Below are positions 4,029-24,353 of a stretch of 64,000 nt of DNA, one piece after another. Source of the DNA: Streptomyces lienomycini (lineage in GTDB: Bacteria > Actinomycetota > Actinomycetes > Streptomycetales > Streptomycetaceae); contig NZ_CP116257.1 in the NCBI RefSeq assembly GCF_027947595.1, positions 5,403,501 to 5,467,500 on the forward strand. Reading direction: 5' to 3'. Within the stretch, counting starts at the first letter, position 1. Each line of letters starts with the position of its first letter. A program made the position numbers and the translations under genes. The notes under the pieces were generated by a model. The model saw nothing but the letters and a program-made list of their open reading frames with translations, did no database searches and was not told the origin of the DNA.

Positions 4029-4131
4029 GCGGGGGGACCTTGTGGCCGGCCTCGCCGCAACGCCCTCAGGGGCGCAGGGAGCGGGGGACCTTGTGGCCGA
4101 CCTCGCCGCAGCGCCCTCAGGGGCGCGGGGA
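4029..4131. repeat. Tandem duplication of a ~51-base unit
   Basis: Unit 1 (4029-4080) and unit 2 (4081-4131) share GGGGGACCTTGTGGCC, then CCTCGCCGCA, then CGCCCTCAGGGGCGC, differing at only a few positions and one G. Each unit contains a CGCCC-TCA-GGGGCG hairpin. Unit 2 runs directly into the interspersed repeat copy at 4111-4160, so the satellite seems to have arisen by duplicating the edge of that element. Confidence 0.85.
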
Positions 4132-4160
4132 ACTGCGCGACCAGCCACCGCCTACCCGCG
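4111..4160 (-). repeat. Interspersed repeat copy A, 3' of argR
   Basis: The core GGGGCGCGGGGAACTGCGCG begins at 4120, and ACCCGC begins exactly 34 bases after the core start. The same core and the same 34-base offset occur at 18310 and 24311. A GCGCCC-TCA-GGGGCGC hairpin overlaps the left edge. It lies about 30 bases beyond the argR stop and is given on the minus strand because all three copies follow minus-strand genes in this orientation. Confidence 0.9.
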
Positions 4161-4190
4161 GTCGACGGACACGGGAAGCCGCCGCGGCGC

Positions 4191-4730
4191 TCAGCCCCCG
4201 TTCTGGGCCAACCGCAGCAGATGATCCGCCAGCGCCTGCCCACCCGCAGGCTCCCTGCTGATCAGCATCAACGTGTCGTCACCCGCGATCGTCCCCAGGA
4301 TGTCGTGCAGCTCCGCCTGGTCGATCGCCGACGCGAGGAACTGCGCCGCCCCCGGAGGGGTCCGCAGGACCACGAGGTTCGCGGACGCCTCCGCGGAGAT
4401 CAGCAGCTCCGCGGAGAGCCGCCGCATCCGCTCCTCCTTGGCCGACTCCCCGAGCGGGGCCCGCGGGGTGCGGAAGCCGCCCTCGCTGGGCACCGCGTAG
4501 ATGAGGTCGCCGTCGGTGTTGCGGATCTTGACCGCGTTCAGCTCGTCCAGGTCCCGGGAGAGCGTCGCCTGGGTGACGGTGAGCCCGTCGTCGGCGAGCA
4601 GCTTCGCCAGCTGGCTCTGCGAGCGCACCGCCTGCCGGTTGAGGATGTCCACGATCCGGCGGTGGCGTGCGGTGCGGGTCTGCGGCAGGGCGGGCCCCGC
4701 CGTCTGCTCGTGCTCCTGCGCGTGGCTCAT
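4191..4730 (-). CDS. argR: Arginine repressor ArgR
   Basis: The protein has 179 residues, starting at ATG 4730 ([11 protein letters not shown]...). GGAGA, inside the end of argD, serves as its ribosome site. ArgR is a hexameric winged-helix repressor whose DNA binding depends on arginine. Visible are the N-terminal helix-turn-helix [20 protein letters not shown] with [13 protein letters not shown] near 20-65, and the C-terminal oligomerisation and arginine-binding domain ending in [12 protein letters not shown], where the aspartates contact arginine. It is the last gene of argCJBDR, 7 bases after argD, so it should repress its own operon through the site before argC. Normal length for the family. 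Confidence 0.97.
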
Positions 4731-4737
4731 CGTCGTC

Positions 4738-22212: not shown

Positions 22213-23361
22213 TCAGGTGAGGTAGGCCGGTGCCGCCACGGGCAACGTAAATCGGAACTCGGCGCCGCCGCCGGGGGCGCGGCCGACCGTGATGGTGCCG
22301 CCGTGGGCCTCGACGATGCCCTTGACGATGTACAGCCCGAGACCGGTGCCGCCGCGCTTGCTGCCCCGCCAGAAGCGGGTGAAGACGCGGTTCATGGACT
22401 CCTCCGGGATGCCGGCCCCCTCGTCGCTCACCGTGACCGACGTGCCGGTGTCCTCACCCTCGCGGGGGGACGCCGTGGGCGTGACGTCAATGGTGACGGT
22501 TCCCTCGCCGTGCCGCACGGCATTTTCCAGCAGGTTGCTGAGCACCTGGTCGACCTTGTCGGGGTCGGCCCACAGGTCGGGCAGCGGCTGGGCGACGCGG
22601 AGCAGGAACCGGTCGGCCTCCTGGCCGGCGGCGACGTACGCCTGGATGTGCCGGCCGACGGCGGCGCCGATGTCGACGGGCTGGCGGCGCACCTCCAGGC
22701 GGCCGGAGTCGATCCGGGAGATGTCGAGCAGCTCGGCGATGAGCCGGGTGACGCGGTCGGCGTCGGCGTCGACGGTCTCCAGCATCAGCCGCTTCTGGTC
22801 GTCGGTGAACCGCTCCCACTTGGCCAGCAGCGTCGCGGTGAAGCCCTTGACGGAGGTGAGGGGGGAGCGCAGTTCGTGGGCGACGGTGGCGATCAGCTCG
22901 GCGTGGCTGCGCTCGGTGCGGCGGCGGGCCTCGGTGTCGCGCAGGGTGACGACGACGCGGTGGACGGGGCCGAGGGGTTCGGTGCGGACGTAGCGGGCGG
23001 TGACCAGGACCTCCCGGCCGCCGGGGAGCAGGAGGTTGCGTTCGGGCTGGCGGACGCGGATGGCGAGGCCGCCGTAGGGGTCGGTGAGCTGCCACCAGCG
23101 GCGGCTCTCCAGGTCCTCCAGGGGCAGTGCGCTCTCCAGGGGCTGTCCGAGGGCTTCGGCGGCGGGAGTGGCGGTGATACGGACGGCGGCGGCGTTGAAG
23201 CAGACGACCCGGCCGTGCTCGTCGGCGACGACGAGGCCGTCGGGCAGCTGGTCCGGATGGATGCCGAGGTCGGCGGGATCGGCGGGATCTTCGGGCGTGC
23301 GGGGCGCGGGCGGACGCGGCGCTCCCCGTGCACCCGGTGCGCTGCTGGTGCCGACGCTCAT
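22213..23361 (-). CDS. Orphan PAS sensor histidine kinase
   Basis: The protein has 382 residues. There are no membrane helices, so it is cytoplasmic. A PAS domain (about 35-145; GLVVADEHGRVVCFNAAA) precedes the HisKA dimerisation helix with the phospho-acceptor H162 in VAHELRSPLTSVKG. The HATPase domain has the N box NLLENAVRH, the G1 box VSDEGAGIP and the G2 region GGTGLGLYIVKGI. No response regulator is adjacent, so its target lies elsewhere. It sits between pheS and the rRNA methylase on the same strand; the 181-base gap to pheS suggests separate transcription. The signal sensed by the PAS domain is unknown. Confidence 0.9.
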   Translation of the reverse strand: MSVGTSSAPGARGAPRPPAPRTPEDPADPADLGIHPDQLPDGLVVADEHGRVVCFNAAAVRITATPAAEALGQPLESALPLEDLESRRWWQLTDPYGGLAIRVRQPERNLLLPGGREVLVTARYVRTEPLGPVHRVVVTLRDTEARRRTERSHAELIATVAHELRSPLTSVKGFTATLLAKWERFTDDQKRLMLETVDADADRVTRLIAELLDISRIDSGRLEVRRQPVDIGAAVGRHIQAYVAAGQEADRFLLRVAQPLPDLWADPDKVDQVLSNLLENAVRHGEGTVTIDVTPTASPREGEDTGTSVTVSDEGAGIPEESMNRVFTRFWRGSKRGGTGLGLYIVKGIVEAHGGTITVGRAPGGGAEFRFTLPVAAPAYLT

Positions 23362-23411
23362 CCCCGTACCCCACCTCTCAACCGCGCAGGGGCCCTGAGC
23401 TGGTCACCCTA

Positions 23412-24260
23412 CTAGCTCGTGGTGACGGAGCGGCACCCTCCGGCGGCACGCTGTGCACGCGCCGACGCGTAGAGACATACGGCGGCGGCGGTCGCGAGGT
23501 TCAGACTCTCGGCCTTTCCGTGGATCGGGACCCGCAGGACGGCGTCGGTGAGGGCGCGGGTCTCCTCCGGGAGCCCCCAGGCCTCGTTGCCGAACACCCA
23601 GGCGGTGGGCCCGCCCATGGTGCCCGCGTCCAGTTCGGCGTCGAGGTCGTCGTCGCCCGCGCCGTCTGCCGCCAGCACCCGCACCCCGGCGTCCCGCAGC
23701 CCGGCGACGGCCCGCTCGACGGGGACGCCGACGGCGACCGGCAGGTGGAACAGCGAGCCGACGGAGGCGCGTACGGCCTTGGGGTTGTACAGGTCGACGG
23801 AGGCGTCGGTGAGCACGACCGCCTCGGCCCCCGCGGCGTCGGCGCAGCGCAGCACGGTCCCGGCGTTGCCGGGGTCGCGGACGTGGGCGAGGACGGCGAC
23901 GAGCTTGGGGCGGGCGGCGAGGATCTCGTCGAACGGCGTGTCCAGGAACCGGCAGACCCCGACCAGGCCCTGCGGGGTGACGGTGGTGGAGATGTCCTCG
24001 ATCACCGAGTCGGCGGCGAGGTGCACCCGGGCGCCGGCCTCCCGGGCGGCGCCGACGATGTCGGCGTACCGCTCCGCGGCCTCGACGGTGGCGAACAGCT
24101 CGACCAACGTCTGCCCGAACCCCGCGGCCTCCCGCACGGCCTGCGGCCCCTCGGCGAGGAACAGCCGCTCCTTCCCCCGGAAGTTCCGCTTCTCGAGCCG
24201 CCGCGCGGCGGCGACACGGGGGGACCGGGGGGAGATCAGCTCGGGGCTGACAGGACGCAC
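23412..24260 (-). CDS. SpoU/TrmH-family RNA 2'-O-methyltransferase
   Basis: The protein has 282 residues. It has an N-terminal substrate-binding domain (RNFRGKERLFLAEGPQAVREAA, about 25-46) and a C-terminal SPOUT trefoil-knot domain with the three signatures: VRDPGNAGTVLRCADAAGA near 127, AWVFGNEAWGLPE near 222, and VPIHGKAESLNLATAAAVCLY near 248. It uses SAM to methylate a ribose in rRNA or tRNA; the specific nucleotide is not predictable. The start is GTG 24260. It lies downstream of rplT with the repeat copy and terminator between, so it is probably expressed independently. Confidence 0.9.
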   Translation of the reverse strand: MRPVSPELISPRSPRVAAARRLEKRNFRGKERLFLAEGPQAVREAAGFGQTLVELFATVEAAERYADIVGAAREAGARVHLAADSVIEDISTTVTPQGLVGVCRFLDTPFDEILAARPKLVAVLAHVRDPGNAGTVLRCADAAGAEAVVLTDASVDLYNPKAVRASVGSLFHLPVAVGVPVERAVAGLRDAGVRVLAADGAGDDDLDAELDAGTMGGPTAWVFGNEAWGLPEETRALTDAVLRVPIHGKAESLNLATAAAVCLYASARAQRAAGGCRSVTTS

Positions 24261-24300
24261 TCTTGCTCACCTTCACATCTGAATCGTCGTGGACTGCAAC

Positions 24301-24353
24301 GCGCCCCAAAGGGGCGCGGGGAACTGCGCGACCAGCCACAACGCACCCGCGGC
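24301..24353 (-). repeat. Interspersed repeat copy C, between rplT and the rRNA methylase
   Basis: The core GGGGCGCGGGGAACTGCGCG starts at 24311 and ACCCGC starts at 24345, again 34 bases on. The left edge is a perfect hairpin, GCGCCCC-AAA-GGGGCGC (24301-24317). Here the element lies beyond the rplT terminator and about 40 bases before the methylase start. Confidence 0.9.

Follow-up and report, generated by a model that had tools for sequence, protein, structure and literature searches.

The closest described counterparts of the repeat analysed here are the repetitive extragenic palindromic (REP) elements. As presented in the available part of PMC3733652, they are short and intergenic, lie mostly between convergent or unidirectional genes near their 3′ ends, are distributed unevenly between species and occur as doublets; one kind of them, tagged by CGTC, is without a dedicated transposase. 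The bacterial interspersed mosaic elements (BIMEs) of Escherichia coli and other bacteria are mosaics of modules and form arrays (PMC2817692, in the part available), and paired inverted units characterize the systems of REPINs (REP doublets forming hairpins) and REP-associated tyrosine transposases (RAYTs) (PMC3116915, likewise in part). The main text of PMC3733652 does not contain the word actinobacteria, and the phyla named there do not include them; in the available part of PMC4681348, devoted to S. coelicolor, REP elements are mentioned for E. coli only. Here we describe an element found three times in a 64,000-nt stretch of Streptomyces lienomycini DNA (NZ_CP116257.1, positions 5,403,501-5,467,500, assembly GCF_027947595.1; hereafter, the window). 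With about even confidence, we consider it a member of a non-coding, REP/BIME-like repeat family of Streptomycetaceae. It resembles REPs and BIMEs by habit, but it is not a REP according to the tests of tag sequence and of RAYT association. None of six strings of its core turned up in the literature searched, which comprised main texts and extended neither to figures and supplements nor to most subscription journals.

Each of the three copies in the window contains, on the plus strand, the exact 21-mer GGGGCGCGGGGAACTGCGCGA (the core), at positions 4120-4140, 18310-18330 and 24311-24331 (copies A, B and C, respectively). When up to three mismatches were allowed, three matches were obtained, whereas 100 shuffles that preserved dinucleotides yielded 0.03 on average. 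The three-copy repeat proposed in a preliminary description of this DNA is thus real, and so is its fixed geometry, as ACCCGC starts at exactly +34 from the core start in every copy; genome-wide, this spacing is found in 11 of 32 copies, or in 21 if one mismatch is tolerated. All three copies lie 3′ of the genes suggested earlier, which NCBIfam confirmed as argR (stop at 4191), pheT (stop at 18397) and rplT (stop at 24443), the distance from the end of the core to the stop codon being 50, 66 and 111 nt. In copy A, the core is preceded by the distal arm of a closing stem (GCGCCC) with its loop (4111-4119) and followed by a tail (4141-4174) bearing ACCCGC at +34. The distal arm and the tail of copy B occupy 18301-18309 and 18331-18364, and those of copy C, where the arm (GCGCCCC) is again given with the closing-stem loop, 24301-24310 and 24332-24365, all on the plus strand. 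These assignments are based on genome search, NCBIfam and shuffles for the cores, on sequence and tail consensus for the tails, and on sequence for the arms, supplemented by enrichment of the stem over shuffles (copy A) or by folding (copies B and C). The stems at the left edges comprise 6, 6 and 8 pairs, and among the six strands folded, the plus strand of copy C alone was clearly more stable than its own shuffles (z = −2.83). No Rfam family was detected at gathering score at any of the three copies. The common orientation described earlier holds for the window and not as a general rule: the genome has 16 copies on each strand, and beside copy B there is an opposite half-copy with another, type II core (GGCGGAGCCGCACATGTCACAGCCCCGCG; 18242-18270, plus strand; G000:C1:5421742-5421770:+), recovered by the type II search.

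In each unit, the 21-bp core is joined to a degenerate tail some 35 bp long; a distal arm that closes a short hairpin is optional. Its consensus, written in the gene sense, is GGCGGCTGCGGGT-CCGTCGTGGCTGG-TCGCGCAGTTCCCCGCGCCCC-TTnnGGGG, which corresponds to the degenerate tail, the core and the distal arm. Closure by a stem of 6 bp or more was found in 59% of 32 copies from the own genome, 47% of 87 copies from the genome G091, 47% of 45 copies from other genomes of the genus and 49% of 89 copies from pheT loci, relative to 5-10% in shuffles (5% for the own and G091 sets). It was rarer elsewhere, being present in 20% of 15 copies from the order sample and 5% of 41 copies from G059, where shuffles also gave 5%. 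Hence, the hairpin noted earlier at the left edge is recurrent but optional. The conserved word, unlike that of REPs, is a 21-mer whose inner dyad spans no more than 4 bp. A GTAG- or CGTC-tagged palindrome was not found, CGTC being present inside the tail but beside no conserved stem; the downstream consensus contains no T run, and thus the combination of hairpin and U tract typical of intrinsic terminators is not seen.

Two kinds of core are used behind the same tail. The type II core, which reads TCGCG and then CCCACGCGGCGGAGCCGCAnAT..CACAGCCCCGCGCCCC, occurs in 61 of the 199 congeneric genomes, none of which is devoid of type I, and the sister species L146 and L153 carry type II and type I, respectively, behind the same tail. 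At the rplT 3′ ends of L109, L140, L143, L144, L147 and others, inspection by eye revealed a third small hairpin element, similar to CCGCCGTCGTGGTTGATCGCCGTTGCGGCGGA, in place of type I or II; the stretch GTCGTGGyTGrTCGC appears to be common to it and the tail. In G059, units form head-to-tail arrays (e.g. C1:40998-41468) with a 57-bp period made of the core and a species-specific tail; these arrays flank a spacer, with minus units on the left, plus units on the right and other small palindromes between them. In its modular make-up, with a tail, either core, a closing arm and further palindromes, and in its arrays, the family is reminiscent of BIMEs. Unlike regular REPs of alternating orientation in BIMEs, however, the units of the G059 arrays examined are in tandem within each arm, and this richest genome gave no match to PF01797, the profile covering IS200 and RAYT transposases. 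With respect to miniature inverted-repeat transposable elements, L124 and L128 differ by presence and absence of the unit as a single gap of about 67 bp; its ends vary between sites, and no target duplication is evident.

Positions relative to genes were determined with a codon-usage gene predictor, which finds argR, pheT and rplT in the window, and for plasmids with the annotation of the records. The sample consisted of 180 distinct copies from the own, G091, genus and order sets, G059 and the pheT loci being left out on account of arrays and of choice by place, respectively. Outside predicted genes lay 175 of these copies, while 5 were over a predicted gene; one had no right neighbour, which left 174 usable copies. 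They divide into 75 in convergent, 97 in tandem and only 2 in divergent gaps, whereas divergent spacers make up 33% of intergenic positions (the window, four further stretches and 80 pheT loci) or 38-39% in two smaller control sets. The earlier suggestion of a preference for gene 3′ ends is therefore borne out far above chance: the copies sit behind stop codons and avoid divergent, that is promoter, spacers. Orientation is biased, not fixed. In tandem gaps, the tail faces the stop in 64 cases and the other way in 33, and with arrays collapsed to give 159 copies (64 convergent, 61 and 32 tandem, 2 divergent) the tandem ratio yields p = 0.003. No such bias was seen in G059 (collapsed arrays: tandem 4:6, convergent 6). 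At the pheT loci, 15 of 89 copies overlap a predicted open frame, and the 74 intergenic ones comprise 58 with the tail and 14 with the hairpin toward the stop, and 2 convergent. When the best place in each of six plasmid records was considered, the five annotated ones were all behind a stop, four with the tail facing it.

The distribution of the element is wide within one family and uneven. At no more than 2 mismatches, the own genome (7.86 Mb) contains 32 copies, 21 of them exact, with none for the reversed control. The exact core is present in 108 of 199 Streptomyces genomes, at 1 to 641 copies each (reversed control 0 in all), and, like REPs, the element is abundant, extragenic and short. 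In an order-wide sample, 169 of 293 genomes bear the core, including 5 of 5 from four other genera of the family; the 15 genomes sampled from two other families were all without it. The core is also present in 46 of the 48 genomes of named relatives; in the five closest to the window, copies number 21, 41, 43, 9 and 3. Viral contigs contained no exact core, and copy C had no match in phage records (blastn, E 0.001), while the consensus query gave 12 places in 6 plasmid records, all from Streptomyces. In G091 the element is scarce near chromosome ends: the terminal 0.8 Mb on the two sides together contain 3 of its 79 clusters, relative to 12.3 expected. This depletion, the small number of plasmid records and the lack of viral and phage matches speak against a freely moving transposon. 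Streptomyces chromosomes are linear; since the own assembly begins at dnaA (G000:C1:1043-2068), it is probably rotated.

Some sites are occupied in many species. In 80 pheT loci of named Streptomyces, 91 copies were found at no more than 3 mismatches, and 85 of them fall into three sites, with only 6 elsewhere. The site 3′ of pheT holds 29 copies in one orientation, 3 partners facing the opposite way and, in L132, an opposite copy that stands by itself; that 3′ of rplT has 26 copies and 3 opposite partners, and the third, 0.7-1.4 kb beyond pheT, 23 copies in a single orientation. A fourth site is located 3′ of argR, where, partly by eye, 14 relatives were scored as having type I (6), a type II-like core (1), a canonical hairpin (2) or nothing recognizable (5). 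That the main orientation does not change at these sites speaks for vertical inheritance of the copies rather than repeated insertion. A given site usually shows one of three states: an intact core, a type II core in its stead, behind the same tail, or no core.

The core remains intact even where its flanks are saturated with changes. Between orthologous copies from species with pheT-gene identity below 0.93, two core segments are 0.91-0.98 identical, a value inflated by the selection of copies at no more than 3 core mismatches, while the adjacent 20 nt show 0.62-0.69 and positions +11 to +25 only 0.28-0.38 identity (random DNA, 0.30-0.31). At the third site, positions −40 to −21 are 0.64-0.73 identical between orthologues relative to 0.48 for unrelated copies. 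A search for loci that relied on nothing but the tail gave 110 tails. Next to 67 of them is a core with no more than 2 mismatches; 8 show 3-9 mismatches, and the other 35 show at least 10. Sorted by eye, this last group includes the type II core, cores that are intact but displaced by a few bases, and false hits of the tail. Intermediate decay is thus uncommon, which argues for constraint on, or turnover of, whole cores.

One way to account for these features is that the element acts as RNA at the 3′ end of mRNAs, where it would serve to terminate, process or stabilize the transcript; read in the gene sense, this would contain the tail and the core as well as a hairpin closed by GCGCCCC...GGGGCGC. 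We regard this as rather unlikely, and the proposal of a role in RNA processing, stability or termination made in the preliminary description found no support here. The position of all but 2 of the usable copies behind a stop agrees with it, as does the lower mean folding energy of the sense strand (−42.7 versus −34.8 for antisense). The best local hint of structure, seen by eye, is provided by pheT of L117 and L163, where long arms around the tail differ between the species yet remain complementary. The 2 of 14 relatives with a canonical hairpin at argR, where others carry the element, would fit as well, as would the lower share of pheT loci with a strong hairpin behind the gene among those that have the element (6/37) than among those lacking it (15/43), although the whole distributions do not differ (p = 0.48, Mann-Whitney). 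Nevertheless, the consensus fold of the 32 own copies amounts to 4 pairs in the core, none changed on both sides, in what is a weak test as 3 of the pairs never vary, and ungapped RNAalifold of 258 copies gave values near zero. Substitutions in the closing stem comprise 6 compensated and 6 uncompensated ones, besides 11 that allow pairing either way and 1 that belongs to none of these classes. Shuffle z-scores are close on both strands (own −0.82/−0.62, genus −1.33/−1.31, G091 −1.03/−0.88), G059 lacks any excess of closing stems, and one third of tandem-gap copies are in the other orientation. The rplT copies stand behind a terminator-like hairpin, identified by eye at 24381-24418 (minus strand), between the rplT stop and copy C, in the window and similarly placed in element-bearing relatives, and an own copy resides between rpoA and rplQ, an unlikely spot for a strong terminator. 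In convergent gaps other strong hairpins are about as frequent with the element (6/46) as without it (16/99; p = 0.80); replacement of terminators by the element is therefore unsupported, within the limited power of this and the pheT comparison. Pairing of YGCGGG in the tail with CCCGCG in the core was also considered and rejected: own tails reading TGCCGG, noted by eye, break it, and the core side varies too little for covariation to bear on it. Neither GGGGC nor CCCCG occurs in the available parts of the main texts of Term-seq papers on S. avermitilis, S. clavuligerus and S. lividans.

Other explanations place the cause at the level of DNA spread or chromosome mechanics. Mobilization by a RAYT, an IS200/IS605-like tyrosine transposase moving REPs and REPINs, would explain intergenic short repeats, opposite-orientation doublets and arrays. 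A converging, REPIN-like arm is commoner than downstream of the core at the pheT loci (16 versus 9 of 89; shuffled 7). This is the only set in which it is so, the corresponding numbers being 4 versus 5 of 32 in the own genome (shuffled 2), 4 versus 9 of 86 in G091 (shuffled 1), 3 versus 3 of 45 in the genus (shuffled 4) and 1 versus 6 of 16 in the order (shuffled 0). A REPIN reading of the long converging hairpin found at pheT in some relatives (left arm GGGG..CTGCG) was discarded, this arm not being general beyond pheT loci. PF01797, the sole RAYT profile used, has matches in 66 of 199 genomes; these do not include the own genome or the core-rich G059 (641 copies) and G103 (354), and G145 has 12 matches and no core. 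As many as 62 of the 108 core-bearing genomes are without a PF01797 match, unlike in REPIN/RAYT systems, and the tagged palindromes of REPs are missing. Since the core is more frequent among genomes with a PF01797 match, we rate this explanation slightly higher than we did initially, but still as improbable. A polar motif of chromosome segregation or replication, similar to the FtsK-orienting polar sequences (KOPS), is hardly credible: some contigs among the matches listed show one-strand runs, yet the one complete genome analysed in this respect, G091 (dnaA at 4.77 Mb), has 19 plus and 16 minus copies on one arm and 27 plus and 24 minus on the other, and so no replichore skew. A more serious possibility, though still one we hold to be less than likely, is neutral or selfish DNA devoid of host function, its core kept uniform by repeated copying, conversion and lineage-specific bursts. 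This would be in line with copy numbers of 0-641 across the genus and 3-43 among the five nearest relatives searched, with the 57-bp tandem arrays of G059, with swaps of core type and with frequent loss or gain. On the other hand, across most of the tree orthologous sites agree in the place and main orientation of their copies, and the tail (identity of about 0.65) was not homogenized with the core, unlike what long conversion tracts would produce.

The most likely mode of action, with chances that we consider roughly balanced, may be that of a DNA-level recognition site for a putative protein, because a short exact word persists without convincing covariation or strand asymmetry. One could imagine a protein that would bind the core sequence-specifically, either a topology or nucleoid protein or an enzyme copying the unit. 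The spacer behind a stop codon might be the place where a copy does the least harm, and new copies as well as core swaps could result from recombination or from template switching, without a RAYT transposase. From sequence alone such a recognition site is probably hard to part from a slowly copied repeat that is tolerated behind genes; we prefer the former since the core outlasts its surroundings at fixed sites. Several observations weigh against this preference. The exact core is missing from 91 of 199 genomes, and is hence dispensable. In the core and the adjacent 20 nt, orthologues from distant species are no more alike than unrelated copies, so turnover could conserve the core. Gain and loss are frequent, with at least 24 changes at pheT and at least 12 at rplT (81-row tree, states loosely scored), and decayed cores are present at pheT in L091, L097 and L126. 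Both the bias of the tail toward the stop in tandem gaps and the enrichment of the optional closing stem in the own and G091 copies would suit a role in the transcript better. Finally, the core is found in 46 of 66 PF01797-positive genomes relative to 62 of 133 others (p = 0.0025, uncorrected for kinship and genome size), which favours RAYT mobilization.

Other features of the window include a partial direct duplication of about 52 bp ahead of copy A, at approximately 4031-4140 (GGGGGACCTTGTGGCCG.. twice), a match to the Rfam family Scr1601 (Streptomyces RNA 1601; 196 bits) at 25983-26197 on the minus strand, about 1.2 kb from rplT, and direct repeats of 18/36 bp and 27 bp at 31308-31541 and 60702-60958.

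In its most far-reaching form, which we consider rather unlikely, the picture would be that of a streptomycete-specific DNA site, recognized by a putative protein, which lies behind the stop codons of genes including the housekeeping ones argR, pheT, rplT, rpoA, rplQ and an HU-like gene, is older than many species splits, and consists of two interchangeable core cassettes joined to a constant tail. The repeat family itself would account for a sequence found at many Streptomyces gene ends. Being REP-like without the tags, not tied to PF01797 genome by genome, fixed at orthologous gene ends and provided with a two-core toggle, it may serve as a test bed for the spread and persistence of bacterial repeats.

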